DNA of 64,000 bases from an uncultured Pedosphaera sp. (GTDB taxonomy: Bacteria; Verrucomicrobiota; Verrucomicrobiia; Limisphaerales; Pedosphaeraceae), in NCBI GenBank assembly GCA_903918755.1, contig CAIXFN010000017.1, positions 1 to 64,000 of the forward strand, given 5' to 3'. Numbering within the stretch: position 1 is the first letter of the stretch; each line of letters starts with the position of its first letter. The notes under the pieces are model-generated. The model saw only the letters and a list, made by a program, of their open reading frames with translations. It made no database searches and was not told where the DNA came from. Below, one piece after another: positions 7,691-42,004 of the stretch. The position numbers and the translations under genes were made by a program.

Positions 7691-8302
7691 TCAGCCATGC
7701 TTCGAACTGACGGATTTCATGCGGCGGAAACGAAAAACCAGGGCCGCGAAACCCAGGCTGCTCAGCACCAATGTCGAAGGCTCAGGATCCTCAACTAACA
7801 CCAAACCATTTGCGCCAATCCCTCCCGGACCGGTGAAGAGGAAAAAGGGCGGCGCGGTTCCGCCGCCCAAACCCGTCGTAATTTGGCCAACATTACTGAC
7901 GCCGACAAAGGAAGGGCGCTCGTATCCCCCACCTAGGCCGATTGCAGCCTCGTATGTTGGCGCGTTTCCATCCCAGCCCCTGATGACGAAGAAGGGCTTT
8001 TCACCAGGCTGGACCCCAAGAATCGTTTGGACGGCGGAACTGATTTGACCAGGAAAGGCATTTGCTGCCGGGGTGATGACCATGACCGGCCTGGTAGACT
8101 CAAAAGCCAAATATTCCGTGGCGCCGAAATAGAGCCCGAAATGGTAATTGGAGGCGGGGGAAATCTTGCCGGTAACCGGATTGCCCCAAATGTTGGTGGC
8201 GACCACCGCCCCGGCAAAACTGACCGTGCCTTGGGCGTCAACCTGACGCGGCGCGGCGATCAAGCCGAATCCCAAGGTGATTAAAAACAGGTAGCTTTTC
8301 AT
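7691..8302 (-). CDS. PEP-CTERM protein, paralogue 1
   Basis: Small exported protein of 203 residues. It has a signal peptide (residues 1-24, cut near VDAQG), then a core shared with four neighbours: GTVSFAGAVV, KISPASNYHFGLYFGAT, VMVITPAANAFPGQISSA, FFVIRGWDGNAPTYE and APPFFLFTGPGGIGANGL. It ends with PEPSTLVLSSLGFAALVF and a basic FRFRRMK tail. PEP-CTERM tails are recognised by exosortase (established), which removes the tail; no exosortase is in this window. It is the last of the five genes in transcription order. The biological role is unknown. Confidence 0.88.
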   Translation of the reverse strand: MKSYLFLITLGFGLIAAPRQVDAQGTVSFAGAVVATNIWGNPVTGKISPASNYHFGLYFGATEYLAFESTRPVMVITPAANAFPGQISSAVQTILGVQPGEKPFFVIRGWDGNAPTYEAAIGLGGGYERPSFVGVSNVGQITTGLGGGTAPPFFLFTGPGGIGANGLVLVEDPEPSTLVLSSLGFAALVFRFRRMKSVSSKHG

Positions 8303-8487
8303 ACTTATTTACTCCATCGCTGATTCCTGATTCATCCCCACATTATTCTGTTTCCCCGGTTCCCCGCCTGCTTTAGCAAATGCCCGGAAATTCCCTGCTG
8401 CATTCAACCGAAAGGCCCCGCACTTCACGCAAGTTTTAGGCCCGCAATCTTTTCAAACCTCCGCCTCAACAAATCCACTGACTCTTC

Positions 8488-9114
8488 TCACTTTCCCATC
8501 GGGCAGGGCTTCCCCTGACCACAGATCTTCCGGCGACGGATATGAATCGCAAGCGCCGCGAAACCAACGCTACTCAGCACGAGTGTGGAGGGCTCGGGCC
8601 CGTCAACTAACACCAATCCATTCGCACCAATCCCACCGGGACCGGTGAAGAGGAAAAAGGGCGGCGTCGATCCGCCACCTAAACCGGTCGTGAATTGACC
8701 AACCCCACTGATGCCGGCATGCGTCGGAAACTGATACCCCCCCACGCCACTAATTGCCGCTTCGAACGTTGGCGCGTTGCCATCCCACCCCTTGATGACG
8801 AAGAAGTCGGTTTCGCCCGTGGGGTGTTGGGCGATGGTCTGGGTGGCAGAGCTGATCGTGCCCGCGAAGGCATTCGCTGCCGGGGTGATAACGAATGCCG
8901 GGGTCGTCGAGGACTGAGCGGCAGCCGCCGTCGCCCCCAGGTACAAACCAAAGTGGTAATTGGATGCGGGGGAAATCTTACCGTGAACTTGTGTTCCCCA
9001 ATTGTTGGTTTCAACTACAGCGCCGGCAAAACTGACCGTGCCTTGGGCGCCGGACGGGCGCGGAACGGCGAGCAAACCCAATCCCAAAGTAATAACGAAA
9101 AGGAACTTTTTCAT
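8488..9114 (-). CDS. PEP-CTERM protein, paralogue 2
   Basis: Exported protein of 208 residues starting at the ATG at 9114, where the signal peptide MKKFLFVITLGLGLLAVPRP begins. The frame is open 30 bases further upstream, but that extension is not signal-like. The core matches the neighbours, with GTVSFAGAVVETN, KISPASNYHFGLYLGATA and TPPFFLFTGPGGIGANGL. It ends with GPEPSTLVLSSVGFAALAI and the basic IRRRK. Its first 80 or so bases are nearly identical to those of paralogue 3, which points to recent duplication or gene conversion. Confidence 0.88.
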   Translation of the reverse strand: MKKFLFVITLGLGLLAVPRPSGAQGTVSFAGAVVETNNWGTQVHGKISPASNYHFGLYLGATAAAAQSSTTPAFVITPAANAFAGTISSATQTIAQHPTGETDFFVIKGWDGNAPTFEAAISGVGGYQFPTHAGISGVGQFTTGLGGGSTPPFFLFTGPGGIGANGLVLVDGPEPSTLVLSSVGFAALAIHIRRRKICGQGKPCPMGK

Positions 9115-9174
9115 AATAATATATTCACACCACCAACTAAACAACCAACGGGACTTCGCTCATGACCTGATCGA

Positions 9175-9774
9175 TCAGGACTTCCTCGGCCCACCGATTT
9201 TCCTAAGTCGAACGTGCCATGCGCAGGCGGCGAAAGCCAAGCTACTCAGTACGAGTGCCGAAGGCTCGGGGATACTGTACAATACCAGGTCATTGGCGCC
9301 AATTCCGCCGGGACCGGTGAAGAGGAAGAAGGGCGGAGCGCTACCGCCGCCGAGCCCGGTCGTCATTTCACCAACATGACTCTCACCTCCATATTTATTC
9401 GAACCATCGGCAATGGCAGCTTCGAAGGAGCTCGGATTCCCGTCCCAGCCTTTGACGACGAAGAAGAGCGTTTCACCAGGAGAGTGGCCAAAAACCGTCT
9501 GGGTGGCGGCACTGATCTGACCAGGGAACGCGCTCGCAGTCGGGGTGATGACCAAGACCGGAGTGGTGGAGAGCTCGGCCGCAGTCGCAGTAGCGCCCAG
9601 GTACAAACCGAAGTGGTAATTGGATGAGGGGGAAATCAGGCCGTTGGCGCCCGTACTGATCCGGTTGGTGGTAACCACCGCGCCAGCAAAACTGACCGTG
9701 CCTTGAGCGCCGGCCGGGCGCGGAACGGCGAGCAAACCCAATCCCAAAGTAATAACGAAAAGGAACTTTTTCAT
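9175..9774 (-). CDS. PEP-CTERM protein, paralogue 3
   Basis: Exported protein of 199 residues with signal peptide MKKFLFVITLGLGLLAVPRP, identical over these 20 residues to paralogue 2. The core carries GTVSFAGAVVTTN, SPSSNYHFGLYLGATATAA, TLFFVVKGWDGNPSSFE and APPFFLFTGPGGIGAN. The tail IPEPSALVLSSLAFAACAW ends with HVRLRK, the PEP-CTERM arrangement of motif, hydrophobic segment and basic end. A conserved leader (TAATCAGGAGCAGTCA on the minus strand, 9790-9805) precedes the start. Confidence 0.88.
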   Translation of the reverse strand: MKKFLFVITLGLGLLAVPRPAGAQGTVSFAGAVVTTNRISTGANGLISPSSNYHFGLYLGATATAAELSTTPVLVITPTASAFPGQISAATQTVFGHSPGETLFFVVKGWDGNPSSFEAAIADGSNKYGGESHVGEMTTGLGGGSAPPFFLFTGPGGIGANDLVLYSIPEPSALVLSSLAFAACAWHVRLRKIGGPRKS

Positions 9775-9789
9775 ATTAAATAATGCGGT

Positions 9790-9805
9790 TGACTGCTCCT
9801 GATTA
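9790..9805 (-). promoter_or_regulatory. Shared leader element before PEP-CTERM paralogue 3
   Basis: On the minus strand TAATCAGGAGCAGTCA ends 15 bases before the start codon. The same AATCAGGAGCAGTCA appears before paralogue 4, and a weaker form (GAATCAGGAATCAG) before paralogue 1. The AGGAG inside it is too far from the ATG for a normal ribosome-binding site, so it may be a promoter or leader remnant inherited by duplication. Confidence 0.4.
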
Positions 9806-9957
9806 ATCTCAAAACTGTTCTCTTGCTCTCGCTCCCAGCCAGGTTCAACTTCGCACCATTATTCACGACTGAATTCAGCCGCAAGGCCCGCCCTTCGATC
9901 GACATCTACGACCAGATTAAAATCGATCCTCCGCCTTAATGCGTGAAGGCAATCCCT

Positions 9958-10572
9958 TCACGGCCTCATCGGGCGAAGCTTCCTTCCGCCGCTGGATTTC
10001 GCAGGACGGGCAAAAAAGGCAATGGCCGCGAGAGCAACGCCACCCAGCTGGAAGGCGGTGGGTTCTGGAACAGGAGTAAAAATCAACCCATTTGCGCCAA
10101 TCCCGCCGGGGCCGGTGAAGAGAAAAAAGGGCGGTGCGGAGCCGCCACCCAAGCCGGTCGTGATCTGTCCAACAGCGCTCACCCCAGAGATGAATGAAGT
10201 ACCGGTGCTCAACCCGATCTCATAGGAGGCCGCGCCTCCGTTCCAGCCCTTAATGACAAAGTAGTCAGTCTCGCCCGTGGGGTGGCCGCTGATCGTCTGG
10301 GTGGCGGAGCTAATCGTGCCCGGGAAGGCGTTGGCCGCCGGGGTAATCACGAACGCCGGGGTCGTGGAGGACTGTGCTCCAGCGGCGGTCGTGCCCAGAT
10401 ACAGCCCGAAAGTGAAGTCGGAAGCGGGGGAGATCTTGCCGGAAGGCTGGCCTCTCCAATCGTAGGTCATAACCACCGCCCCGGCAAAACTGACCGTGCC
10501 TTGGGCTTGGACCTGCCTCGGTGAAACCGCCAAGCCAAATGCCAGGCCGATTACCAAAATAGAGCTTCTCAT
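9958..10572 (-). CDS. PEP-CTERM protein, paralogue 4
   Basis: Exported protein of 204 residues from the ATG at 10572, giving signal peptide MRSSILVIGLAFGLAVSPRQ. The frame stays open for 56 codons further upstream, but that part is not signal-like and overlaps the conserved leader. The core holds GTVSFAGAVVMTYDWRG, KISPASDFTFGLYLGTTAA, DYFVIKGWNGGAASYE and APPFFLFTGPGGIGANGL. The C-terminus VPEPTAFQLGGVALAAIAF is a slightly degenerate PEP-CTERM, and the basic cluster is extended to about 15 residues with Arg and Lys. Confidence 0.86.
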   Translation of the reverse strand: MRSSILVIGLAFGLAVSPRQVQAQGTVSFAGAVVMTYDWRGQPSGKISPASDFTFGLYLGTTAAGAQSSTTPAFVITPAANAFPGTISSATQTISGHPTGETDYFVIKGWNGGAASYEIGLSTGTSFISGVSAVGQITTGLGGGSAPPFFLFTGPGGIGANGLIFTPVPEPTAFQLGGVALAAIAFFARPAKSSGGRKLRPMRP

Positions 10573-10587
10573 ATTGAAAACTCCCAC

Positions 10588-10604
10588 TGACTGCTCCTGA
10601 TTTA
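10588..10604 (-). promoter_or_regulatory. Shared leader element before PEP-CTERM paralogue 4
   Basis: Minus-strand TAAATCAGGAGCAGTCA ends 15 bases before the start codon, at the same distance as the copy before paralogue 3. Confidence 0.4.
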
Positions 10605-10760
10605 TCCCACTATTCTCCTCTGGCGGCGATTGCGGAACTCCTCCAAACTTGCACCTTAATCCCCGGCTGTCAAACCGAATAGAGCGGGAGTAGCCCGTTA
10701 GCATGAAGAACCAATATTTTAGACTATTCCAGTTGGCCAAAACGGCAAACTTGGCTCTTA

Positions 10761-10796
10761 AAAATCAAAAGGCCGTTTCCTTTTGGGAAACGGCCT
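10761..10796 (-). terminator. Rho-independent terminator after PEP-CTERM paralogue 5
   Basis: An 11-bp perfect stem AGGCCGTTTCC/GGAAACGGCCT (10770-10780 with 10786-10796) with a 5-base loop. On the minus strand it is followed by TTTTGATTTTT. It lies 30 bases past the stop of paralogue 5, so this gene is a separate transcript from paralogue 4. Confidence 0.9.
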
Positions 10797-10825
10797 GAAT
10801 GGAAGACTTTTAAGTCCCCGTCAGC

Positions 10826-11401
10826 TTACTTGCGACGGCGGAGGAACGCGAGGGCCGCGAGACCAGCGCCACCGAGGACGAAGGTCGAGGGCTCGGGAAC
10901 CGGGGTCAAAACCAGACCGTTGGCACCAATGCCACCGGCACCGGTGAACAGGAAGAAGGCGGGCGAGGAACCGCCGCCCAAACCGGTCGTGATCTGACCA
11001 ACACCGCTGATACCGGCATAGGAAGCACTGCCAGTGGAGATCGCGAATTCATAGGAACCCGCGCCACCGTTCCAACCCTTGATGACGAAGAAGTCGGTTT
11101 CGCCCGTGGGGTGACCGGCAATCGTCTGGGTGGCGGAGCTGATCGTGCCCGCGAAGGCATTGCCAGCAGGGGTGATGACCAACGCCGGGGTCGTGGAGGC
11201 CTGAGCAGCAGCCGCGGTAGCACCCAGGTACAGCCCGAAGGTGTAGTTGGAAGCAGGAGCGATCTTGCCAGTGACCGAGGTGGTCGTGTTGTTGGTGGTG
11301 ACATTGGCACCGCTGAAAACAACGGTACCTTGGGCACCAGCGTTCACAGCAGCAGCAACCACGGCAACGCCGATGGTGGAGCTAAGGATGAATTTTTTCA
11401 T
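10826..11401 (-). CDS. PEP-CTERM protein, paralogue 5
   Basis: Exported protein of 191 residues. The signal peptide is MKKFILSSTIGVAVVAAAVN with cleavage near AGAQG. The core includes GTVVFSGANVTTNNTTTSV, KIAPASNYTFGLYLGATAA, DFFVIKGWNGGAGSYE and SPAFFLFTGAGGIGANGL. The tail VPEPSTFVLGGAGLAALAF followed by LRRRK is a textbook PEP-CTERM. It is the most diverged of the five in its signal peptide and is the only one with its own strong terminator. The role is unknown; family members are usually exported surface or matrix proteins. Confidence 0.9.
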   Translation of the reverse strand: MKKFILSSTIGVAVVAAAVNAGAQGTVVFSGANVTTNNTTTSVTGKIAPASNYTFGLYLGATAAAAQASTTPALVITPAGNAFAGTISSATQTIAGHPTGETDFFVIKGWNGGAGSYEFAISTGSASYAGISGVGQITTGLGGGSSPAFFLFTGAGGIGANGLVLTPVPEPSTFVLGGAGLAALAFLRRRK

Positions 11402-12639: not shown

Positions 12640-12688
12640 TTTACACTTGCTTAACAATTCCCCGGGTTCAGCTCACCACCGCTTTACA
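12640..12688 (+). promoter_or_regulatory. Triple-hexamer regulatory site A
   Basis: TTTACA at 12640-12645, 5 bp, TTAACA at 12651-12656, 26 bp, TTTACA at 12683-12688; an ATG follows at 12717. The same spacing is found at 14626-14674 and 17283-17331. Direct repeats one helical turn apart are the usual binding mode of OmpR/PhoB-type response regulators, so this is a candidate operator. Confidence 0.6.
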
Positions 12689-12716
12689 AACGGCGCGTCT
12701 ATTGAGACTTAACGAC

Positions 12717-12902
12717 ATGCAAGAATTGCACCATGCCTGGCGTACCGAAACCGCCACAATGGCGGTCCCGGGTGCACTGGCCCCGAGCGGCGGATTATTA
12801 TCGTGTCTGGCTCCGCGGATTTTCCCATGGCACTCCAAAACCTGCTTCCTTGGCTGCAGCTCCTGCCGACTCCGGACCATTGCAGGGGCACTCCATCCAT
12901 AA
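12717..12902 (+). CDS. Possible short leader ORF or gene remnant upstream of the YHYH gene
   Basis: A 61-codon frame starting MQELHHAWRTETATMAVPG, in the same frame as the YHYH-PEBP gene and ending with TAA 10 bp before it. It has no recognisable domain or signal peptide. It is listed only because its ATG falls at nearly the same distance from regulatory site A as the start codons of the PQQ-propeller and multicopper oxidase genes do from sites B and C. It could be an untranslated leader, a regulatory peptide or the stub of a displaced gene. Confidence 0.25.
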   Translation: MQELHHAWRTETATMAVPGALAPSGGLLSCLAPRIFPWHSKTCFLGCSSCRLRTIAGALHP

Positions 12903-12911
12903 CCTCAAATC

Positions 12912-14612
12912 ATGAGCAATCGAATAGTCCACACTCCCCGATCCTCCCCCGCCGGCCGGGGGCTGACCCTGGCCGCTCTCTTGGTCCTGGCATTTGGCCA
13001 CCCTGCCTCGGCCCATGATCTCGGAACTGGCGCGGAACATCCGCATTACCGGATTGCCAGCCAGCCGCCCCTCCAACCCGGAACCCGCTGGCTGGTGGCG
13101 CAATCAACCACCTCTCCAACGATAGCCGGACGGCGGAGCGCGACCAACTCCCCGGGCCAACCGTCTCAGGCAATCCCTTTTGCCGCGTTTGCCCCGCGCG
13201 TGCGGACCCATTGGGATCAGGATTTCCTCTACGTGGAGGACAATGGCCTGCCCGCCCATGCGCTGATGGTGGGAATCACCGCATGGCAACAACAAGTCCC
13301 GTTGCCCCAGCCCTACTTTGGGGCCAACGCCTGGCGACTCCCCTTGCACCCCACTCCCGCCGCCGCTCCCCGATCCATCCGCAACCAATTCCTGCGCGGG
13401 GCCATCGCGATCGCCGTCAACGGCATCCCGATTTTTAATCCGCAGAACAACCGCGGCGAGCTTTCCCTGGAAATCGGGGAACTGGATGAATATGGGGGGC
13501 ATTGCGGGCGGGCGGACGACTACCATTACCACGCCGCTCCCCTGCACTTGCAGCCGATCATCGGCCGGGCGCTGCCCATCGCCTATGCGCTGGATGGTTA
13601 CCCGATCCATGGCCTGACTGAGCCCGATGGCTCGTCGCCAGCGCAACTGGACGCTTTCCAGGGGCACACCACCCCCCAACTCGGATACCACTACCACGCC
13701 GCGACCAAATATCCGTATGTGAACGGCGGTTTTCATGGCGAAGTGGTGGAACGGGATGGCCAGGTAGACCCGCAACCCCGGGCCCAGCCAGTGCGCCCAG
13801 CCCTCACCCCGTTGCGCGCCGCCCGGATCACGGGCTTCACCGCCGCCCCGGACAGCCAATCCTTCGACTTACAATACCTGGTCAACCATCGCACCGCCGC
13901 CATTCATTATGCCACGAGTGGATCCGGCGATTGGCAATTCCAATTCCTCAGCCCGGAGGGCGCCACCCGCACGGCAACCTATCGTACCGGTGATGCCCGC
14001 GGGTTGCGGCGCGGCGCCTTGGGCCCGGAGAGCCCGGCTCCCGGGGAACGCACCGGTCCCGCCGATCGCGACCAGCAAACGGCGCGCGCTCCAGTTGAGC
14101 CGGCACGCGCACCCGATATTCTCCCGAAAAGCAACGGCACCCTGCGACTGCTCAGCCCGGTCGTCGTCAATAATGGCCCTTTGCCCGTTGATTTTACCGG
14201 GGACAGTTCCAGCGCCACCCTGCCGCTGAGTTGGACCGGGGCTCCGACGGGCACCCGAAGCTATGTCTTGATCATGCATCACTTGGATCCCGCGGGCGTC
14301 ATCAAGTGGTATTGGACACTCTATAATATCCCGGCCGCGGTGCACGAACTGCCCCGCAACACCACCGGCCTTGGCACGTTGGGCAACAACAGCGTCAATG
14401 ACCGGATCGGCTATGCGCCCCCGCACTCGAAAGGGCCTGGTCCCAAAACCTATATTTTGACGCTCTATGCCCTCTCGGCACCGCTGGACATCACCGTCAA
14501 TCCCGCGCGGGTAAACCGCGGAGTTCTGCTGGCAGCCATGCAGGGTTTGGTGCTGGAACAGGCGGAACTCCGCGTGATTCATGATCGGACGGGCACAGCC
14601 CCCGGCCATTGA
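12912..14612 (+). CDS. YHYH-domain protein fused to a PEBP (YbhB/YbcL-like) domain
   Basis: Exported protein of 566 residues with signal peptide to about residue 35 (AFGHPASA). Residues 60-300 form a YHYH domain. The signature appears as DDYHYHAAPLHLQ near residue 200 and again as GYHYHAATKYPYVNGGFHG near residue 260, with DGYPIHG between them. The middle (300-390) is Arg/Pro rich. Residues 400-566 match the phosphatidylethanolamine-binding (Raf kinase inhibitor-like) family: LSWTGAPTGTRSYVLIMHH, WYWTLYNIPA, NDRIGYAPPHSKGPGPKTY and TLYALSAPLDI. Neither domain has an assigned reaction here. The His-rich YHYH sites suggest metal binding (inference). It lies downstream of regulatory site A. Confidence 0.82.
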   Translation: MSNRIVHTPRSSPAGRGLTLAALLVLAFGHPASAHDLGTGAEHPHYRIASQPPLQPGTRWLVAQSTTSPTIAGRRSATNSPGQPSQAIPFAAFAPRVRTHWDQDFLYVEDNGLPAHALMVGITAWQQQVPLPQPYFGANAWRLPLHPTPAAAPRSIRNQFLRGAIAIAVNGIPIFNPQNNRGELSLEIGELDEYGGHCGRADDYHYHAAPLHLQPIIGRALPIAYALDGYPIHGLTEPDGSSPAQLDAFQGHTTPQLGYHYHAATKYPYVNGGFHGEVVERDGQVDPQPRAQPVRPALTPLRAARITGFTAAPDSQSFDLQYLVNHRTAAIHYATSGSGDWQFQFLSPEGATRTATYRTGDARGLRRGALGPESPAPGERTGPADRDQQTARAPVEPARAPDILPKSNGTLRLLSPVVVNNGPLPVDFTGDSSSATLPLSWTGAPTGTRSYVLIMHHLDPAGVIKWYWTLYNIPAAVHELPRNTTGLGTLGNNSVNDRIGYAPPHSKGPGPKTYILTLYALSAPLDITVNPARVNRGVLLAAMQGLVLEQAELRVIHDRTGTAPGH

Positions 14613-14625
14613 ACTCCGGCCAACT

Positions 14626-14674
14626 TTTACACGTGCTTAACAATTCTCCCGGCCAGGCACACCACAACTTAACA
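14626..14674 (+). promoter_or_regulatory. Triple-hexamer regulatory site B
   Basis: TTTACA at 14626-14631, 5 bp, TTAACA at 14637-14642, 26 bp, TTAACA at 14669-14674, then 29 bp to the ATG at 14704. The whole segment from about 14620 to 14706 is visibly similar to 12634-12719, including a shared gcgtctatt and aacgacATG. Confidence 0.65.
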
Positions 14675-14703
14675 AAGGCAGCGTCTATTAATGACGTAAC
14701 GAC

Positions 14704-16041
14704 ATGAAACCCACGCTCCATATTATACGCGCCGGAATCCTCGGACTGGCAGTCACGGGCCAACTCGCCGCCGGGGCGGCGGATTGGGCGCAGTTCCGGG
14801 GCCCCAACGGTTCGGGGATCGCCGCGACGGACGCCGCCCCCCCAATCACCTGGAGTGCCAAGGAGAACCTGCAATGGCGCCTCGCCCTCCCGGGCCCGGG
14901 CTCTTCCAGCCCTATTGTGGTGGGCGATCGCGTATTTCTGACCTGCTACACCGGCTACGGGGCCGGCCCGGGTGGCGGACTGGATCAACTCCAACGCCAC
15001 CTGCTGGCGGTTGACCGCCGCACCGGCAAGTTGCTCTGGGATCAGGCCATCGCCGCCACCCTCCCGGAGGACACCTATAGCGGGTATCTCACGGAGCACG
15101 GCTACGCCAGCAGCACACCGGTCTCGGACGGGGAGCGGATTTACGTGTTTTTTGGCAAATCCGGAGCCCTGGCGTTTGATTGGAACGGCCGCCAACTCTG
15201 GCAGGTCAATCTCGGGCAAATGTCCAGCAACCGCCGCTGGGGTTCGGGCGCCAGCCCGATTCTGGATCAGGACAAGCTCATCGTGAATGCCGCGGATGAG
15301 AGTCGTTCGGTGCGGGCGCTGGACAAATTGACCGGCAAGGAACTCTGGAAAGCGGAGGCGAACAGCCTGGAACTTTGCTTTGGCACCCCCATCGTCGCCG
15401 CCGGACCGGCCGGCCGGCACGATCTGGTTCTGGCCGTGCCGGGCGAACTTTGGGGCCTGAATCCCGACACCGGCAAACTGCGGTGGTTCGCGGAAACGGG
15501 CATCGATGGCAACGTTTCACCGACGGTGGTCACCGCTGATGGCGTGATCTTCAGCACGGGTGGTTTCCCCCGGATGGGAACGGTCGCGGTCCGGGCCGGC
15601 GGCAAGGGCGACGTTTCCACCACGAACCTGGTGTGGACGAGCCAGACTGCCTCGTATGTGCCCTCCCCCGTGGTCTCCGCCGGGCGGGTATTTGTGGTCA
15701 GCGATCAAGGTTTCGCCAGTTGTCTGGATGCGCGGACCGGCGAATCCCTTTACAAAGAGCGTTTGCCTGGCGCCAGCGGTGGCGGCATGGGCGGCAAGCC
15801 CTTCTACGCCTCCCCGGTGCTCGCCCAGGACCGTCTTTACGCCGTCAGCCGTCGGAATGGCGTGTTTGTGATCGGCACCGGCGCCGGCTTCAAGCTGCTC
15901 GCCCAAAACCAACTGGCCGGCGACAATTCCGACTTTAACGGCACTCCGGCGATCGTCGGCCGACAACTCTTCCTGCGCTCGAATGCGGCCCTTTATTGCC
16001 TGGAGGCAAAGGCGAATGGCGGCGCAGGTGAATCCCGGTAA
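14704..16041 (+). CDS. PQQ-like beta-propeller protein
   Basis: Exported protein of 445 residues with a signal peptide ending near AAGAA. It begins with DWAQFRGPNGSGIA, typical of the planctomycete/verrucomicrobial PQQ-like repeat (BamB-like) family. Propeller blades are marked by repeats such as VDRRTGKLLWDQ, LDKLTGKELWKAE, LNPDTGKLRWFAE and LDARTGESLYKE. No residues identify a quinone-binding dehydrogenase, so a binding or scaffold role in the periplasm is more likely than catalysis. It lies directly behind regulatory site B. The EF-hand protein follows after 56 bp, probably on the same transcript. Confidence 0.87.
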   Translation: MKPTLHIIRAGILGLAVTGQLAAGAADWAQFRGPNGSGIAATDAAPPITWSAKENLQWRLALPGPGSSSPIVVGDRVFLTCYTGYGAGPGGGLDQLQRHLLAVDRRTGKLLWDQAIAATLPEDTYSGYLTEHGYASSTPVSDGERIYVFFGKSGALAFDWNGRQLWQVNLGQMSSNRRWGSGASPILDQDKLIVNAADESRSVRALDKLTGKELWKAEANSLELCFGTPIVAAGPAGRHDLVLAVPGELWGLNPDTGKLRWFAETGIDGNVSPTVVTADGVIFSTGGFPRMGTVAVRAGGKGDVSTTNLVWTSQTASYVPSPVVSAGRVFVVSDQGFASCLDARTGESLYKERLPGASGGGMGGKPFYASPVLAQDRLYAVSRRNGVFVIGTGAGFKLLAQNQLAGDNSDFNGTPAIVGRQLFLRSNAALYCLEAKANGGAGESR

Positions 16042-16097
16042 AACACGTCAAACAATTTAGCAATCACTCGGTCAATCACGCAAAAAATCAAAACAAC

Positions 16098-16988
16098 ATG
16101 AAAACAAAAATACTCCTCCTCGCACTGGCCCTTGGGGCCGCGCCCTGCTTCAGCCAGGCCCAAGACGGCAATCCCCCGCCCATTAACCAGCCCCCCCGCG
16201 CCGGCGGCCGCGGTGGCCCGGGCGGTCCCGGCGGCTTCCATGTCCTCCCCCCGCCAGTCATGGAAGAATTGAACCTGACGGAAGCCCAACTGAAGGAAAT
16301 GGCGGCGTTGGAGTCGGAATTGAAGGGTAAACTGGAAAAAATCCTCAAACCCGACCAACTCGAAGTGCTGAAGCAGTTCGTGGGCGCGGGACGCCGGGGC
16401 GGCCCCGGAGGCCAAGGCGGTCCGGGGCAAGGTGGCCCTGCGGGCGGTTTCGGCGGGCCCCGGGGTCAAGGTGGTGAAGGTCAGTTTCCGCCGCCCGACC
16501 AAAATGGCCCCGGGCGCGGTCCCGGACCGGGAATCCCTGGCGGACCCGGCCATGGCGGTCCGGGGCAAGGTGGCCCTGCGGGCGGTTTCGACGGCCCCCG
16601 GGGTCAAGGTGGTGAAGGTCAGTTTCCGCCACCCGACCAAAATGGCCCCGGGCGCGGTCCCGGCCAAGGCGGTCCCGGCGGACAACGTGCGGTCAACCCG
16701 TTGGTGGCCGCCCTGGATCTGAACGGCGATGGCATTATTGATGCCAGCGAAATCGCCCAGGCCAGTGAGTCGTTGAAGAAGCTCGACAAGAATGGCGACG
16801 GGAAAATTACCCCGGAGGAATACCGCCCAGCCCGCGGCGGTCAAGGTCCCGGCAACGGAGGTCCCGGCGGCGGCCCCGGCCGACGCGGTCAAGGTGGTCC
16901 CAGTGGGCCTGGTGGCCAAGGGGGGCCCGGCGGACAGGGCGGTCCGGGTGGTGAGAATCGCCCGCAAAGACCTCCGCTGGATCAGTAA
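16098..16988 (+). CDS. Gly/Pro-rich secreted protein with Spy-like segment and EF-hand pair
   Basis: Protein of 296 residues with a signal peptide to about residue 20 (CFSQAQ). Residues 55-95 (MEELNLTEAQLKEMAALE and on to KILKPDQLEVLKQF) resemble the LTxxQ helices of Spy/CpxP-type periplasmic chaperones. A Gly/Pro/Gln region follows and contains a near-exact tandem duplication with a 138-bp period (first copy from 16418, second from 16556). Two calcium-binding EF-hand loops come next, DLNGDGIIDASE and DKNGDGKITPEE. The Gly-rich tail is probably disordered. Calcium binding and periplasmic location are inferred. The context links it to the PQQ propeller gene before it. Confidence 0.8.
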   Translation: MKTKILLLALALGAAPCFSQAQDGNPPPINQPPRAGGRGGPGGPGGFHVLPPPVMEELNLTEAQLKEMAALESELKGKLEKILKPDQLEVLKQFVGAGRRGGPGGQGGPGQGGPAGGFGGPRGQGGEGQFPPPDQNGPGRGPGPGIPGGPGHGGPGQGGPAGGFDGPRGQGGEGQFPPPDQNGPGRGPGQGGPGGQRAVNPLVAALDLNGDGIIDASEIAQASESLKKLDKNGDGKITPEEYRPARGGQGPGNGGPGGGPGRRGQGGPSGPGGQGGPGGQGGPGGENRPQRPPLDQ

Positions 16989-17011
16989 TCGCGGATTAAA
17001 CAAAAACGGGG

Positions 17012-17045
17012 GTGGCGACAACATTGTCGCCACTTTCGTTTCTTC
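17012..17045 (+). terminator. Rho-independent terminator after the EF-hand gene
   Basis: Perfect 10-bp stem GTGGCGACAA/TTGTCGCCAC with a 2-base gap as drawn (17012-17021 with 17024-17033), followed by TTTCGTTTCTTC. It separates the EF-hand transcript from the multicopper oxidase. Confidence 0.82.
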
Positions 17046-17046
17046 G

Positions 17047-17083
17047 GAGCAGGCTTCCCACGCTCGGCACGGGGAGCCTGCTC
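17047..17083 (+). other. Second hairpin behind the terminator
   Basis: GAGCAGGCT (17047-17055) pairs with AGCCTGCTC (17075-17083), followed by attttat. It may act as a back-up terminator. Confidence 0.55.
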
Positions 17084-17282
17084 ATTTTATGGGGTCCCTC
17101 CCCAACCTGAATCCGCTCGCCCCGCTTGCGCCTGGCCTGCCCCGCAATCCCCGTCTGGCCGACACTCAACCCCCATGATGGCAAACCGAATGCCCCCGAC
17201 GGTAACACCCCCTTTCGCGGCGCCCCCAGCCAAATCTTGGTCCAAGTTTTGCCCGCGCGGAACGATGAGGTGGGGCGGGACT

Positions 17283-17331
17283 TTTACAGACCCTTTACAT
17301 ATTCCGCGGGGTCGAAAACAATCGCTTAACA
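17283..17331 (+). promoter_or_regulatory. Triple-hexamer regulatory site C
   Basis: TTTACA at 17283-17288, 5 bp, TTTACA at 17294-17299, 26 bp, TTAACA at 17326-17331, then 29 bp to the ATG at 17361. The flanks differ from sites A and B, so the shared spacing is not simply a recent copy of a whole segment. Confidence 0.65.
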
Positions 17332-17360
17332 TCGCTGGGGCAACTTGGGGGTGCAACCAT

Positions 17361-19082
17361 ATGAAAAACATCATAAAACTCAGTGCCCTGCTGGGATTGA
17401 CCATCGCCAGCGCCCCGGCCCAGACATACAACGCCTTGTGGATTCCGCCCACACTCACGGGAACGAATTTCAATCTTTCCCTTCACCAGACGAACAAGCA
17501 GTTCTTTCCCGGCCTCAACACGCCCACTTTCGCCTACAATTCCGGCAATGTGTGGGGCCCCACCCTGATCATGAACAAAGGGGACACGGTCCAAATCTAC
17601 CTGACCAACAACCTGAACCAGACCACCACCACCCACTGGCATGGCTTTCACATTCCTGGAATTATGGACGGCGGCCCGCACGAAGTGATCCCCGCCGGCA
17701 CCACCTGGACACCCACCTTCACGATCCTCAATGGGGCCTCCACCTATTGGTATCACCCGCATCTGCATCCCGCCACCCAGAATCAGCTTTCCTACGGAGC
17801 CGGGGGCATGATCATCGTCCAGGACGCGCAGGAAGCTTCCCTGCCCTTGCCCCGCACCTATGGCGTCGATGACATCCCGCTGGCCCTGACCAGCCGCCGC
17901 TTCACCACCAACGGCAGCAACGCCATCGTCGTTACCAATAACTGCGCCTATGGCGACTACCAGCTGGTCAATGGTACCATCAACGCCCAGATCACCCTGC
18001 CCCAACAATACGTGCGGCTCCGCCTCCTCAATGCCGAAATTGAGCGGGCCTACAACCTGGGCTTCAGCGACAACCGGACGTTTTACGTCATCGCCACAGA
18101 CGGCGGCCTCGCGAATGCGCCCATTCCCGTCACCCGGGTCAGCCTCGCGGTCGGCGAACGGGTGCAGGTGCTGGTGAATCTGGGAACCACCGCCGTCGGC
18201 TCCAGTATCAATTTGATGGCTTACAACACCGCCGCATCGCTCGGTGGGGCGGGTCGCACCGGTTTGCAATTCGCCTATCCCGGCGGCGAGCCCTCCTCGT
18301 CCGGCCAGTTTGGCAGCCTGCTCAACAACCAGAACTATAATATCCTCAACCTCAAAGTGGGCAGCGCGACGACCAATCCGATCACCAGCCTGCCCACGAC
18401 GCTGACGAACAACACCTATTGGACCAGCAACGATGTCAGCAACACCCGCGTCATCAACATCACCGGCGGCAACCCGCCCAACGGCGTCTTCACGTTTGAC
18501 AACGTGGCCTTCAGCATGAACGTGATCAACCAGACCCTGAATCTGAATGCCATCGAAAAGTGGGTGGTCATCAACAATTCCGCCTTCAGCCATTCCTTTC
18601 ATATCCACGACATCCAGTTCAACCTCGTGTCCCGCACCAGCCCGGCGGGCGGGCTGAACGCCTATGAACAAGGCTGGAAGGACACGCTGTATACCCAGCA
18701 AAACTCCACCAACGTGTTCATCGCGAAATTCGATACCTTTGCCAGCTATTACAATCCGTTCATGTATCATTGCCATTTCTCGGACCATGAAGATCAGGGC
18801 ACCATGGGCCAGTTCCTGGTGGTAAACAACTCCGTGGAGGATCTGGCGATCGCCAGTTTCACCCGGCATGGTCCCAACGGTGATATTGCCCTCCAGTTCA
18901 AGGCCACGCCGGGCACGACATACAAGCTCCAATATTCCAAAAACATGGACAGCAGCAGTTGGTCCGACATCGGCACCGTGACGAGCAACGGCATTTCGGC
19001 GAACTTCACCGACACGGACCCGACGCGTCTGGCGCAACCCCGCGGCTTTTACCGGGTCACCATTCCGGTGAATAGCTATTGA
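17361..19082 (+). CDS. Multicopper oxidase
   Basis: Secreted copper enzyme of 573 residues that oxidises a substrate such as a phenol or Cu(I) while reducing oxygen to water. The start at 17361 gives signal peptide MKNIIKLSALLGLTIASAPA. All four copper-binding motifs are present: HWHGFHI (about residue 91), YWYHPHLH (about 132), HSFHIHD (about 410) and YHCHFSDHEDQGTM (about 470). The last contains the type 1 Cys and an axial Met. Domain order and length fit the CotA/CueO/laccase group. About 80 residues after the last motif form an extra domain with TYKLQYSKNMDSSSW, a C-terminal module common in verrucomicrobial secreted proteins. The metal efflux genes follow after 31 bp, so a copper-handling role is likely. 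Confidence 0.92.
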   Translation: MKNIIKLSALLGLTIASAPAQTYNALWIPPTLTGTNFNLSLHQTNKQFFPGLNTPTFAYNSGNVWGPTLIMNKGDTVQIYLTNNLNQTTTTHWHGFHIPGIMDGGPHEVIPAGTTWTPTFTILNGASTYWYHPHLHPATQNQLSYGAGGMIIVQDAQEASLPLPRTYGVDDIPLALTSRRFTTNGSNAIVVTNNCAYGDYQLVNGTINAQITLPQQYVRLRLLNAEIERAYNLGFSDNRTFYVIATDGGLANAPIPVTRVSLAVGERVQVLVNLGTTAVGSSINLMAYNTAASLGGAGRTGLQFAYPGGEPSSSGQFGSLLNNQNYNILNLKVGSATTNPITSLPTTLTNNTYWTSNDVSNTRVINITGGNPPNGVFTFDNVAFSMNVINQTLNLNAIEKWVVINNSAFSHSFHIHDIQFNLVSRTSPAGGLNAYEQGWKDTLYTQQNSTNVFIAKFDTFASYYNPFMYHCHFSDHEDQGTMGQFLVVNNSVEDLAIASFTRHGPNGDIALQFKATPGTTYKLQYSKNMDSSSWSDIGTVTSNGISANFTDTDPTRLAQPRGFYRVTIPVNSY

Positions 19083-19113: not shown

Positions 19114-20343
19114 ATGAAACGCATCGCCCCCTGGTTCGTCCTGCTGCTGGCCGTCATCGCGTGGTCCCAACTCCGGCCACAGGCCGGCGCGCCGGTCAGC
19201 GACACGCGAGTGGCCTACCAATGCCCCATGCATCCCTGGGTCAAAGCCGCTCAAATCGCGGACTGCACCATCTGCGGTATGAAGCTGGTCGCCCAGGGCG
19301 CCACCGGCAGCCAGTCAGAAGCTCCCCGCGGCAGCGTCATGCTACCGCGGGGCAGCGCCCGGGTCATGGGCCTGACCACCGCCACGGTCACCAACCGACC
19401 GCTGCAACGTACCCTGCGGGTCACGGGAATGATCGGCGAGGATATGTCCCGGCACGGAGTCATCAGCGCGCCGGTCGAAGGCCGGATTGACGGTCTGGCC
19501 ATGAGTTGCGAGGGCGAACGCATCACCCGCCGGCAACCGCTGGTCACCCTCTTCAGCCGCACTTTGCTGGCGGCGGCCAACGACTACCGGCAGGCCCTCA
19601 CCAATGGCGGCCCCACCCAGGAAACCACCCACCGGGCGCTGCTGCAATTTGGACTAGTGCACGAGCAAATCCTGACCATTCCCACCCGCCAGCCGGATGA
19701 CGCCTATTTCGGGCTGCTCGCCACTCTGAGCGGCACCATCGTGAAGAGTTACGTGGCCGAAGGCCAATATGTGAAGGCCGGCGAAAAGCTCTTTGAAATC
19801 GCTGATTTCACCAAAATGTGGTTTATGTTCCCCGTCTATGAACAGGATTTGTCCTGGGTGCGCGTAGGCCAGACCGTGCGGTTGACGTCCCCCTCCCTCC
19901 CGGGCGAATCGTTCAGCGCCCTCATTACTTTCATCAGCCCAAATCTGGACGAAACCACCCGGTCCGCCCAGGTTCGGGTGGTGCTCGAAAATCCCGAACG
20001 ACGGCTGAAAAATAATACTCTGGCCGCCGGAGTCGTCGAATTGGAGGCGCCTATCGTGCTGGCGGTTCCGCGGAGTGCGGTCTTGTGGTCCGGCTCCCCG
20101 CCCCGGGTTTTTGTGGCCACGGCCCCGGGTGTTTACGAACCGCGGGCGGTCCGGTTGGGGCGGACCGGCGACACGGATTGGGAAGTGCTCGCCGGGCTGG
20201 CCCCCGGCGAGGAAGTGGTCCTCGCCGGCAATCTGCTGCTGGATAGCCAGGCGCAAATGGACCAACTGGCCGTTCCGGCGGCGGGGGCAACCGCCCCTCC
20301 AGCCGCGGCCGTCGTTGTCCCGCCGGCGGGAATCCAGCCATGA
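19114..20343 (+). CDS. RND efflux periplasmic adaptor with heavy-metal-binding domain (CusB-like)
   Basis: Membrane fusion protein of 409 residues that links an inner-membrane RND pump to an outer-membrane channel. After an N-terminal membrane anchor or signal (residues 1-25), residues 30-60 hold a heavy-metal-binding module, YQCPMHPWVKAA with DCTICGMKLV, typical of CusB-like adaptors. The HlyD body follows: barrel-sandwich parts at SAPVEGRIDGL and GTIVKSYVAEGQYVKAGEKL, then IADFTKMWFMF and a C-terminal beta domain. Its last four bases overlap the start of the RND gene (ATGA), so the two are translationally coupled. Confidence 0.92.
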   Translation: MKRIAPWFVLLLAVIAWSQLRPQAGAPVSDTRVAYQCPMHPWVKAAQIADCTICGMKLVAQGATGSQSEAPRGSVMLPRGSARVMGLTTATVTNRPLQRTLRVTGMIGEDMSRHGVISAPVEGRIDGLAMSCEGERITRRQPLVTLFSRTLLAAANDYRQALTNGGPTQETTHRALLQFGLVHEQILTIPTRQPDDAYFGLLATLSGTIVKSYVAEGQYVKAGEKLFEIADFTKMWFMFPVYEQDLSWVRVGQTVRLTSPSLPGESFSALITFISPNLDETTRSAQVRVVLENPERRLKNNTLAAGVVELEAPIVLAVPRSAVLWSGSPPRVFVATAPGVYEPRAVRLGRTGDTDWEVLAGLAPGEEVVLAGNLLLDSQAQMDQLAVPAAGATAPPAAAVVVPPAGIQP

Positions 20344-23300
20344 TCGTGGCCTTGATCGCCTGGTCCCTGCGGCACCGCCTGCTGGTGGCCTGCGGCACCC
20401 TGCTCCTGGCCGCGCTGGGACTGCAGGCCCTTTATGAGACACCGGTGGATGCCCTGCCCGACCTGGGAGAAAATCAAGTTATCCTCCTGACGGATTGGCC
20501 CGGCCGCGCTCCGCAGGAAGTGGAGGACCAGATCACCCACCCCCTGGCCCTCCAATTGCATGGCTTGGCGGGCGTGAACGTGGTGCGCGCCTCCAGCAGT
20601 TTTGGTTCCTCGCTCGTCACCCTGGTGTTCACCGATGGCCCCAGCCATGATCTGACCCGCCAGCGGGTGTTGGAACGACTGAACACCCTCACCGGTACCC
20701 TGCCCGAGGGCGTCGTGCCCCATCTCGGGCCGGATGCCACCGGTTTAGGCTGGGTTTACGAGTATTATCTTGCGGTGGAACCAAGCCGGGCGCCCAACGG
20801 ACGGGGGTATGACCTCGGGGAATTGCGGGCGCTGCAGGATTGGCTCATCCGGCCGGAGTTATCGGCCGTCCCTGGCGTGGCGGAGGTCGCCGGCGTGGGC
20901 GGCTTCGTTCGCCAGTACCAGATTGAAGTCGATTCGCAGAAAATGCGCCTCGCGGGCTTGTCCCTCGGCGGGATCATGGAAGCGGTCAACCAGGCCAATG
21001 CCAACGTGGGCGGTGATACCGTGGCCGAAAACGGGATGGATTTCACTTTGCGGGGAATCGGTCTGCTGCACGGCCGGGAAGATCTGGAACAAATCGTCGT
21101 GCGGGAAAAGGATGGCACTCCCCTCTACCTCAAGGATGTGGCCCGGGTCCAAATTGGGGGGGCGGAGCGCGGCGGCGTCCTGGATGTGGACGGACGCGAG
21201 GTGGTGGGCGGCATCGTGGTGATGCGCGCCGGGGAAAACGCCCGCGCCGTGATCCAACGGGTCCGGGAAAAAGTCGACCGTCTCGCCTCCGCTTTGCCGC
21301 CGGGGGTGAGCCTCCGGGCATTCTATGACCGCGGCGGTTTGATCGACCGCACCATTGGCACCCTCCGGCGTGCCCTGATCGAGGAAATCACTCTGGTCAC
21401 CCTGGCCCATATTCTTTTCCTGTTTCACTTCCGCAGCATTCTGATTGTCCTCCTGCCCTTGCCGGTGAGCATCCTGATTTCGTTCCTGCTGCTCCGCTGG
21501 TGCGGCGTCACCTCCAATATCATGAGCCTCTCGGGCATCGCCATCGCCATTGGGGTGCTCGTGGATGCCGCCATCGTCTTGACGGAAAATGTCCTCCGCC
21601 ACAGCGAGCGGGCGGTCCGACAAAAGGGCGGCGAATTGGATTTGGCGGAACGGTTGACCGTCGTGAATACCGCCGCGCGGCAGGTGGGCCGGCCCATCGG
21701 CTTCGCGCTGGCCATCATCCTCCTGGCCTTTGTCCCCGTGCTCGCCTTCACGGGACCGGAAGGTCGCCTCTTTCATCCCCTCGCCCTCGCCAAGACGTTT
21801 GCCATGCTGGGCGCCACCTTGCTGGCCCTTACCGCGGTGCCCGTCCTTTGCGTCAGCCTGGTGCGTGGCCCATTTTTTCCCGAGGACCGCAACTTCCTCA
21901 TGCGCCGGCTGCTGGGATTTTATGATCCGGCCCTGGATTTCGCCTTGCGGCACCCGCGCAGCGTCCTGCTTTCTGCGGCGGCAACGCTCCTGCTGGCGCT
22001 GGCGCTGCTCCCACGCCTCGGCTCGGAATTCATGCCGCCCCTGAATGAGGGGAGTCTCCTCTTCATGCCTTCCTACACCCCGGCGACCGGACTCACCGAA
22101 GTCAAACGAGCCCTGGCGTGGCAGGATCAGGTGCTCAAAAGTTTCCCCGAAGTACTTTCCGTCGCGGGCAAACTCGGCCGCAGCGATACGGCCACGGATC
22201 CGGCACCGGTGGCCATGATTGAAACCACCCTCGCCCTCAAGCCGGAAAACGAGTGGCCGGCGGGGATGACGCGCGCCCAATTGATTGCCGATATGACCGC
22301 GGCCCTGCGGCAGGTTCCCGGTTCCATCCCCGGATTTCTGCAACCCATCGAAGGCCGGATGCTGATGCTGGCCACGGGCATCCGCGCCCAGTTGGGCATC
22401 AAAATTCTGGGTGATGATCCTGCCCAACTTCAGGCGGCGGCCTTCGCCCTCCAGCGATTGGTCCAGCAGGTGCCGGGGGCCACGGGCGTAACCCCCAGTC
22501 GCAACCAGGGGAAGCCCTACCTCGAAATTCAATTACGCCCCGCCGCTCTGGCCCAATCTGGATTGCGGCCGCGGGAAGTGTTGGAAACCATCGAGGCGGG
22601 ACTGGCCGGACGGAACGTCGGCTCCATCCAGGAAGGTCGCCGCCGGTTCCCAATACAAGTCCGCCTGCAACGCAGCGAGCGCGAGGACTTGACCCGCTTG
22701 CGGGAATTGCTGGTGAGCGGCGCGGGCGGACGGGTGCTTCCTTTGGGTCAACTGGCCAATCTGGAACGGGTCGCAGGTCCCGAGGAAATTGTCAGTGAAA
22801 ACGGCCGGTTGCGGGCTTATGTGCAGGCCAACGTCTCCGGCCGTGACCTGGCGGGATTCGTTACCGAAGTGAAACGCCTGGTGCAAAACGAACTGGCCGC
22901 CCCACTGGCCGCCCAGGGTCTGACCATTGAATACAGCGGAGATTACGAGAACCAACTGCATGCCGCCGCGACTTTGCGACTGATTATCCCCGCGGCTTTG
23001 CTGATCATTTTTTTGCTGCTGCACCAACTGTACGGCAGCCCGCGGGAAGCGGCGCATGTGCTGCTCGCAGTTCCGTTTGCCTTGAGCGGGGGCGTCTTCC
23101 TGCAAGCCATCGGCGGCTGGCATTTTAGCGTCGCCGTCTGGGTTGGTTACCTCGCGCTGTTTGGCACCGCCATTCAAACCGGGGTGATCATGGTGGCCTA
23201 CCTCGATGAAGCCGTCCGCCGCAAACAGGATGAACTGGGCGCCGCTTTCACCCACGGGGACTTGGTCGCCGCCGTCAAAGAGGGCGCCCGCTTGCGGCTG

Positions 23301-23513
23301 CGGCCGAAAGTCATGACCGTGGCCACCATCGTCGCCAGTCTGACGCCGATTTTTTGGAGTCACGGCCCCGGCGCGGAGGTGTTGCAACCCTTCGCCGCCC
23401 CGGTGCTGGGCGGCATGCTCAGCAGTCTCCTGCATATCCTCATCATCACCCCGGTCATTTTTCTCTGGCTGCGGTCCCGGGATCTGCCCCTCACCTCGCC
23501 CTCCCCGCGTTAA
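20340..23513 (+). CDS. Heavy-metal RND efflux permease (CusA/CzcA family)
   Basis: Inner-membrane proton-driven pump of 1057 residues, full length for the family with 12 expected membrane segments. Family marks are TPVDALPDLGENQVILLTDW at the N-terminus, EVEDQITHPL, and GIAIAIGVLVDAAIVLTEN in TM4 with the proton-relay Asp. The C-terminal half repeats this with FGTAIQTGVIMVAYLDE. Substrate is most likely Cu(I)/Ag(I) or another soft metal, judged from the neighbouring multicopper oxidase and the metal-binding domain of the adaptor. No TolC/CusC-type outer-membrane gene follows, so the channel is encoded elsewhere. Confidence 0.94.
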   Translation: MIVALIAWSLRHRLLVACGTLLLAALGLQALYETPVDALPDLGENQVILLTDWPGRAPQEVEDQITHPLALQLHGLAGVNVVRASSSFGSSLVTLVFTDGPSHDLTRQRVLERLNTLTGTLPEGVVPHLGPDATGLGWVYEYYLAVEPSRAPNGRGYDLGELRALQDWLIRPELSAVPGVAEVAGVGGFVRQYQIEVDSQKMRLAGLSLGGIMEAVNQANANVGGDTVAENGMDFTLRGIGLLHGREDLEQIVVREKDGTPLYLKDVARVQIGGAERGGVLDVDGREVVGGIVVMRAGENARAVIQRVREKVDRLASALPPGVSLRAFYDRGGLIDRTIGTLRRALIEEITLVTLAHILFLFHFRSILIVLLPLPVSILISFLLLRWCGVTSNIMSLSGIAIAIGVLVDAAIVLTENVLRHSERAVRQKGGELDLAERLTVVNTAARQVGRPIGFALAIILLAFVPVLAFTGPEGRLFHPLALAKTFAMLGATLLALTAVPVLCVSLVRGPFFPEDRNFLMRRLLGFYDPALDFALRHPRSVLLSAAATLLLALALLPRLGSEFMPPLNEGSLLFMPSYTPATGLTEVKRALAWQDQVLKSFPEVLSVAGKLGRSDTATDPAPVAMIETTLALKPENEWPAGMTRAQLIADMTAALRQVPGSIPGFLQPIEGRMLMLATGIRAQLGIKILGDDPAQLQAAAFALQRLVQQVPGATGVTPSRNQGKPYLEIQLRPAALAQSGLRPREVLETIEAGLAGRNVGSIQEGRRRFPIQVRLQRSEREDLTRLRELLVSGAGGRVLPLGQLANLERVAGPEEIVSENGRLRAYVQANVSGRDLAGFVTEVKRLVQNELAAPLAAQGLTIEYSGDYENQLHAAATLRLIIPAALLIIFLLLHQLYGSPREAAHVLLAVPFALSGGVFLQAIGGWHFSVAVWVGYLALFGTAIQTGVIMVAYLDEAVRRKQDELGAAFTHGDLVAAVKEGARLRLRPKVMTVATIVASLTPIFWSHGPGAEVLQPFAAPVLGGMLSSLLHILIITPVIFLWLRSRDLPLTSPSPR

Positions 23514-40255: not shown

Positions 40256-42004
40256 TTAAATCCCGCCCATGCCCAACAGGAATTCGATATTGCTGCGCGT
40301 CTTCTTCAGCTTGTTCAGCATCAGTTCCATCGCTTCCACCGGCGGAACCCCCGTCAGGGCGCGACGCAGCACCACCACCTTGTTGTATTCGTCCGGGTGG
40401 TAAAGCAGTTCTTCTTTGCGGGTACCGGAAAGCTCGATGTTGATCGAGGGGAAAATGCGGCGATCCACCAGATGGCGGTCCAGATGCACTTCCATGTTAC
40501 CGGTGCCCTTGAACTCTTCAAAAATGACCTCGTCCATTCGGGAACCGGTATCCACCAGCGCCGTGGCCATGATGGTCAGCGAACCGCCTTCTTCGATGTT
40601 GCGCGCCGCGCCGAAAAACCGTTTGGGTTTATGGAGCGCGTTCGCATCCACACCGCCGGACAGAATCTTTCCGGAATGCGGTTGCACCGTGTTGTACGCT
40701 CGGGCCAGACGGGTGATCGAATCCAGCAGAATGACGACATCCCGCTTGTGTTCCACCATGCGTTTGGCCTTTTCGATCACCATTTCGGCCACTTGCACAT
40801 GCCGCTCGGGTGGTTCGTCGAACGTGGAGCTGATCACTTCCGCGGGTTTGCAACTCCGCTCCATATCCGTCACTTCCTCGGGCCGCTCATCGATTAACAG
40901 GATGAACAGGTAAGCCTCGGGGTTGTTCTTGAGAATGGCGTTGGCCAGTTTCTGCATCAGCACCGTTTTACCGGTGCGGGGCGGCGCCACAATCAGTCCG
41001 CGGGTGCCTTTGCCGATTGGGCAGACCAGGTCCAGCACGCGGGTGGACAATTCATCATGCACCGTCTCGAGCAGGAAACGCCGGTTGGGGAACAGCGGCG
41101 TCAGGTTGTCAAAATGGGTCTTGTCCTTCGCCTTGTCGGGATCTTCCGTGTCCACGGCCTCCACCTTGAGCAACGCAAAGAAACGTTCCTTGTCCTTCGG
41201 CGGACGGATCTGGCCGGCGATCAAATTGCCGGTTTGCAGATCAAACCGGCGGATCTGCGAGGGCGAAACATAAATATCTTCCGGGCACGGCAGGTAATTG
41301 AAGCTCTGGGAGCGGAGGAATCCGAAACCTTCGGACAAGACTTCCAACACGCCCTCCGAGAACAACATCCCGCTGCGTTCCGCATTCTTCTGCAGAATGT
41401 GGAAAATGACCTCATGCTTGCGCATGGTACCGAAATTATCGACGCCCAACACCCTGGCCATCTGGTTCAAGTCCCCCATCGACATCGCCTGCAATTTGGC
41501 AATGTTCAGGGTGGTGCCGGCGGCTTCTCCGGTCCCGGTGGCCCGGGGTTGCGCCTCTTCTTCATCCTCATCCTCATCCACGGGATGAGTCGGGGGCTCG
41601 AGTTCCATCGGCTTCGGCGCCGGGTTGGCGGGTTTGGGAGCCGGCAAGGGTTTGGAAACTGGTTTGAGAACGGGCCTGGCCGGGACCACGGGGCGCGGTG
41701 ACGGCGAAGCGGAGGAGACCGGGGCGCTCACCGGGGCCGGGCTGGGGGCGGCTTGCACTACCGGCGTTGGCTTTAGTTCAACCGGGGCCGCCTTGGGCGT
41801 GGCGGCGGGAACCGCTGCTTCCACCGGCGGGACTTTGGCGACGGGCACCGGTTGCGGTTCGGGAATCGGGGCGGACGGAGTTTCCGGAAAAAGATCGGCG
41901 GTGGGAGAGGCCTCTCCCGAAGCTGGGGCGACGACACTAGTGGCGGATTTTGCTGCCTTGGGCTTTTTGGGCTTGGCAACTTTTTTGGGACTGACTTTGG
42001 GCAT
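40256..42004 (-). CDS. rho: Transcription termination factor Rho
   Basis: Hexameric RNA helicase that ends transcription, 582 residues against about 420 in E. coli. The extra length is an N-terminal region (residues 1-160) of Ala, Pro and Val with [14 protein letters not shown] at its start and an acidic [11 protein letters not shown] stretch. The Rho core follows: [10 protein letters not shown] (Rho-N), [20 protein letters not shown] with the RNA-binding fold, then the ATP site [14 protein letters not shown] and the Walker B region [16 protein letters not shown]. Long N-terminal inserts in Rho are known from several phyla. It is a single gene with a hairpin after the stop. Confidence 0.96.

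Follow-up and report, generated by a model that had tools for sequence, protein, structure and literature searches.

Several described regulatory systems resemble the locus analysed here. In E. coli, the regulator-kinase operon cpxRA is likewise divergent from the gene of a small secreted protein, and the cpxP promoter carries TTTAC-N5-TTTACA (TTTACgttgtTTTACA) in the same orientation, pointing at the divergent gene; an FDRxIDxHIS recognition segment, a sensor modelled as PAS-like and a probable link to copper stress complete the likeness. The CusRS and CopRS systems also place CusBA-type pumps and copper oxidases under kinase-regulator control, but the boxes described below are presumably not Cus-type palindromes. 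Pho boxes consist of 11-bp direct repeats, the last half-site of which replaces the -35 element about 9-11 bp before the -10, and the Bacillus PhoP box resembles TTWACA-N5 direct repeats. PhoB class II promoters are similar to the promoters found here in their 11-bp repeats, in the last half-site standing in the -35 place and in the 9 bp to the -10 box. The CpxR-type DNA site has been described as a GTAAA-(N)4-8-GTAAA direct repeat (PMC12802237). The Cpx regulon of Pseudomonas aeruginosa is comparable in its GTAAA-N6-GTAAA sites, often with an 11-bp period, and in including cpxP and RND pump genes; its boxes, however, are listed mostly as single ones and its targets are different (PMC12802237). 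A link between Cpx and copper is known in Salmonella (PMC13201067). The analysis described below suggests, with a probability of about 0.85, that three sites of an uncultured Pedosphaera sp. serve as operator-promoters within a single regulon governed by a CpxR-like regulator and a CpxA-like kinase, both encoded on contig 77 of the same genome.

The window, that is, the whole stretch of 64,000 nucleotides analysed, contains three copies of the triple hexamer TTTACA-N5-TTWACA-N26-TTWACA (Table 1). The original prediction gave their coordinates and spacing exactly, and the distances of 28, 29 and 29 bp to an ATG behind sites A, B and C are also correct. The ATG counted behind site A (12717), however, is not the start of the YHYH-PEBP gene, which begins at 12912; it opens only a 61-codon ORF, which is possibly a leader peptide or a relic. 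The ORF includes a Cys-rich stretch, CFLGCSSC, and its stop lies just ahead of the YHYH-PEBP ATG. On the minus strand, positions 7691-11401 of the window encode a tandem array of five secreted paralogues whose ends are PEP-CTERM-like.

Table 1. Operators, predicted promoter elements and genes in the window
Feature	Position	Strand	Remarks
Site A operator	12640..12688	+	Hexamers 12640-12645 TTTACA, 12651-12656 TTAACA, 12683-12688 TTTACA; E 4.9e-13 against the sequence model
Site A degenerate fourth half-site CTCACC	12672-12677	+	Half-site column with A in 98%
Site A -10-like box TCTATT	12698..12703	+	Predicted start ~12710
61-codon ORF	12717..12902	+	Not the YHYH gene start
YHYH (PF14240)-PEBP (PF01161) fusion protein	12912..14612	+	Behind site A
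Site B operator	14626..14674	+	Hexamers 14626-14631, 14637-14642, 14669-14674; E 6.5e-15
Site B degenerate half-site CACACC	14658-14663	+	
Site B -10-like box TCTATT	14684..14689	+	Predicted start ~14696, 8 nt ahead of the ATG
PQQ/BamB-like beta-propeller protein	14704..16041	+	Behind site B
Secreted EF-hand protein	16098..16988	+	LTEAQ motif recalls Spy/CpxP; matches EF-hand models only
Site C operator	17283..17331	+	Hexamers 17283-17288, 17294-17299, 17326-17331; E 2.0e-9
Site C degenerate half-site AAAACA	17315-17320	+	
Site C -10-like position CAACTT	17341..17346	+	Weak, conserved last T kept; predicted start ~17353
CueO-like multicopper oxidase	17361..19082	+	Behind site C
CusB/HlyD-type periplasmic adaptor	19114..20343	+	
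CusA/CzcA heavy-metal RND pump	20340..23513	+	990 bits against a cut-off of 701

Sites A and B are alike at 56 of about 85-88 bases, as might be expected if the sites had arisen by recent local duplication, with no regulatory function, or by chance. Site B, however, is nearer (62/88) to the site of a PQQ gene in another family than to site A, so that recent copying is not required to account for the A-B likeness. No match was obtained in 100 dinucleotide-preserving shuffles, against three sites in the window. The 7.19 Mb genome contains four exact copies of TTWACA-N5-TTWACA-N26-TTWACA, and within the order 13 of 293 genomes, from 10 genera, have an exact match; the reversed control gave 0 in both searches. 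A sequence model of 70 columns, constructed from 18 aligned sites, matched 97 of the 293 genomes at E 0.01, while the same columns reversed matched 2 of 293, approximately the E-value expectation. The site is thus conserved across genera and families, and on the strength of the genome and cross-genome controls chance or copying was rejected as an explanation, its probability being practically negligible. Beyond the order, model matches are rarer (20 of 388 genomes of a phylum sample, the own genome counted in), and full triple boxes also precede the genes of related regulators in Chthoniobacter, a Spartobacterium, Desulfobacterota and a Blastocatellia genome.

The consensus over 88 non-redundant sites reads TTTACA-cnns-CTTWACAATTCTCC, followed by a CACATAA-type half-site and then by CTTWACA. 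The operator is composed of two dimer sites in tandem, each a direct repeat, at a distance of 32 or 33 bp: the upstream one is TTTACA-N5-TTAACA, and the downstream one combines a weak CACATA-type half with TTWACA. The first half is TTTAC in ~90% of the 88 sites, and the second is TTAAC in 77% and TTTAC in 22%. The spacing had been considered strictly fixed, but the spacer between hexamers 2 and 3 measures 26 bp in 33 of these sites and 27 bp in 55; with 27 bp, all four half-sites keep to an 11-bp lattice (positions 0, 11, 33 and 44). Compared with E. coli CpxRA, the repeat is 11-bp instead of 10-bp, the second half is mostly TTAACA, and a second dimer site is present 32-33 bp away.

No -10 box had been noticed at the right place for hexamer 3 to act as a -35. 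A conserved -10-like box, GTCTATT, is nevertheless located 9 bp past hexamer 3, and its last T is kept in 98% of the 88 sites. It had been sought at the normal distance from a -35 element, whereas it sits at the distance expected from an activator half-site; no -35/-10 pair could be seen because the -35 role seems to be taken by the activator. The second position of the box is C, not A, in 59%, so that the box is not a textbook TATAAT and the assignment of a sigma factor is uncertain. Six to seven bases beyond the GTCTATT box, a pyrimidine-purine step (76% and 79%) suits a transcription start. At the sequence level, the arrangement is that of class II promoters, with an activator half-site in the -35 place at a fixed (9-bp) distance from the -10.

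An OmpR/PhoB-type regulator had been proposed as the binder, and a candidate was found in the same genome. A further site on contig 77 lies between the gene of an EF-hand protein and a divergent operon comprising an OmpR-family regulator gene (about 40538-41308) with an overlapping gene of a CpxA-like kinase behind it. The same arrangement, a regulator divergent from a small secreted protein with a box between them, is present at L012, L022, L028 and other loci, in further genera too, and order-wide the regulator is divergently upstream at 45 of 97 sites. The regulator gene was detected in 38 of 40 site-bearing genomes against 1 of 40 site-free ones (E 1e-80, one copy each), a co-occurrence that is partly non-independent because one site often stands at the regulator gene itself; two site-bearing draft genomes were without it. 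The contig-77 regulator is the probable binder of sites A, B and C.

The regulator contains a PF00072 receiver and a PF00486 (Trans_reg_C) winged helix, both above cut-off, and the DRSIDVH segment of the recognition helix is invariant in its family. A tree that also contained seven regulators of E. coli and relatives from other phyla placed its clade as sister to the one with E. coli CpxR (joint support 97/89), outside the enterobacterial CpxR clade; its identity to CpxR is 42%. It scores below the cut-offs for CpxR (NF008199, 202.3 bits against 341), PhoB (TIGR02154, 188 against 296) and, in distinction from the CusRS and CopRS systems, whose regulators also lie elsewhere in the tree, heavy-metal regulators such as CusR and CopR (TIGR01387, 173 against 279). 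The kinase is likewise below the CpxA cut-off (NF007007, 169 bits against 486); even so, CpxA models ranked first and third in its table of matches. Its sensor has a generic PAS-like fold, for which the periplasmic domain of E. coli CpxA (8uk7) gave Z 9.2 over 104 residues, on a par with other PAS sensors. The regulon differs from that of E. coli CpxRA as well, and an EF-hand or YHYH protein takes the place of CpxP; in the two EF-hand proteins scanned, Pfam gives EF-hand only, and the LTEAQ motif was recognised by eye only.

These results also bear on the reading of the sites as Pho boxes, in which a PhoB/PhoP-type regulator would bind the half-sites and control phosphate-starvation genes. The TTWACA-N5 repeats recall the Bacillus PhoP box, and the 9-bp spacing from the half-site to the -10 is like that of pho-box promoters. 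Nevertheless, the half-site sequence, the regulator and the targets differ from those of PhoB promoters: the regulator groups with CpxR, not PhoB, and no pst or phosphatase gene was recognised among the targets examined. The regulator clade and the targets led us to reject this reading, which is very improbable.

A small regulon had been foreseen, and in other families, too, the site precedes genes for YHYH, PQQ, multicopper oxidase and EF-hand proteins. PQQ orthologues from other families stand behind it in L042, L076 and L079 (at 28-29 bp from the start in L076 and L079), and in L117, from another family, the oxidase orthologue has the site at a nearly equal distance from the ATG (about 27-29 bp over L076, L079 and L117). 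Among the 97 collected sites, 82 adjoin regulator operon, EF-hand, YHYH, PQQ or oxidase genes. The own genome has six strong sites according to the model, A, B, C and those on contigs 77, 76 and 104; the ones beyond the window belong to the regulator/EF-hand divergent region and to two more YHYH genes. In L049, L056, L064, L107 and L127, genes beside the operator or regulator encode small secreted proteins in which a GTGPR...C motif is repeated; the two scanned (L049, L107) matched no Pfam family. It is highly probable that the operator, regulator and regulon are as described here.

YHYH is a predicted metal-binding domain, judging from its histidines (PMC7824862). All three YHYH genes of the own genome carry the site, and in site-bearing genomes of the order 33 of 70 YHYH domains have an upstream site in the right orientation and 0 in the wrong one. 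On contig 76 (L013, 8476-12174; the site D operon), a YHYH gene is followed by a gene of a fused MbnP-CCP_MauG (MbnP-MbnH) protein. The domain combination, MbnP with a di-haem CCP/MauG domain, is that of known MbnP-MbnH pairs (PMC3621798), but here it forms a single protein, encoded in a YHYH operon under the operator. Order-wide, 59 of 96 MbnP domains are located just behind a same-strand YHYH and 0 on the opposite strand, and in two genomes MbnP is directly behind the site. Comparison with solved structures found matches for the PEBP part and none for the YHYH part, and the AlphaFold model of a YHYH protein (pLDDT 30, three sequences) supports no fold claim. In L157, the genes of an acidobacterial YHYH-like protein and of a related regulator are divergently arranged, with a TTTAC-N6-TTTAC box. 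The part of the literature that was searched yielded no paper on a YHYH-copper link and no YHYH-MbnP pairing.

The gene content fits the periplasmic metal or redox role first proposed and may narrow it to copper, given MbnP-MbnH, the CueO-like oxidase and CusBA. The MbnP-YHYH pairing, together with CusBA behind the oxidase, points to periplasmic copper, and such a role for the regulon is likely on the basis of these sequences; that copper would be the main signal is slightly better than an even bet. The actual signal could instead be oxidation or misfolding. With the same operator and regulator, the system might sense general envelope damage or oxidative misfolding, the copper genes being only a part of the response, and this is a substantial possibility, albeit below even odds. 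The sister position to CpxR, the PAS-like sensor model, and the peroxidase and FGE-like genes among the targets agree with it, as does the indirect response of Cpx to copper damage (PMC13201067). Receiver domain, FGE-like and DUF4405 genes, which are not copper genes, are found behind the sites too. However, copper-linked genes recur, and among the sites examined none had a recognisable protease or folding-factor gene behind it. In L125, from the own genus, an animal-type haem peroxidase gene immediately follows a weaker site (E 1.6e-6). It is most likely that the system is a Cpx-like copper/envelope regulon, a variant of Cpx rather than Cpx itself.

In such a regulon, envelope or copper stress would cause the kinase to phosphorylate the regulator, two dimers of which would bind one face of the DNA. 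The downstream dimer would contact RNA polymerase in place of the -35, in the class II manner of PhoB promoters, and transcripts would begin 7-8 nt before the ATG at sites B and C. The YHYH, EF-hand, PQQ propeller, multicopper oxidase, CusBA and MbnP-MbnH-type di-haem proteins may then handle periplasmic copper or copper-driven oxidation, as their gene content suggests. In its most specific form, the proposal is that a verrucomicrobial sister lineage of CpxR directs a copper regulon, that Desulfobacterota and Acidobacteriota possess related regulators and boxes, and that YHYH is the periplasmic copper-handling partner of the fused MbnP-MbnH enzyme; this form is tentative, its chances being a little below even.

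In the portion of the literature searched, no comparable transcription regulon was found described for Verrucomicrobiota; its operator, probable regulator and targets are now defined from sequence. The link with Cpx suggests an old common root of copper and envelope stress sensing. The orphan groups of YHYH and secreted EF-hand proteins gain a testable context beside the MbnP-MbnH copper proteins, and, if the proposal is true, the YHYH domain, so far given a role only in phage tails, would acquire a first one in the cell.
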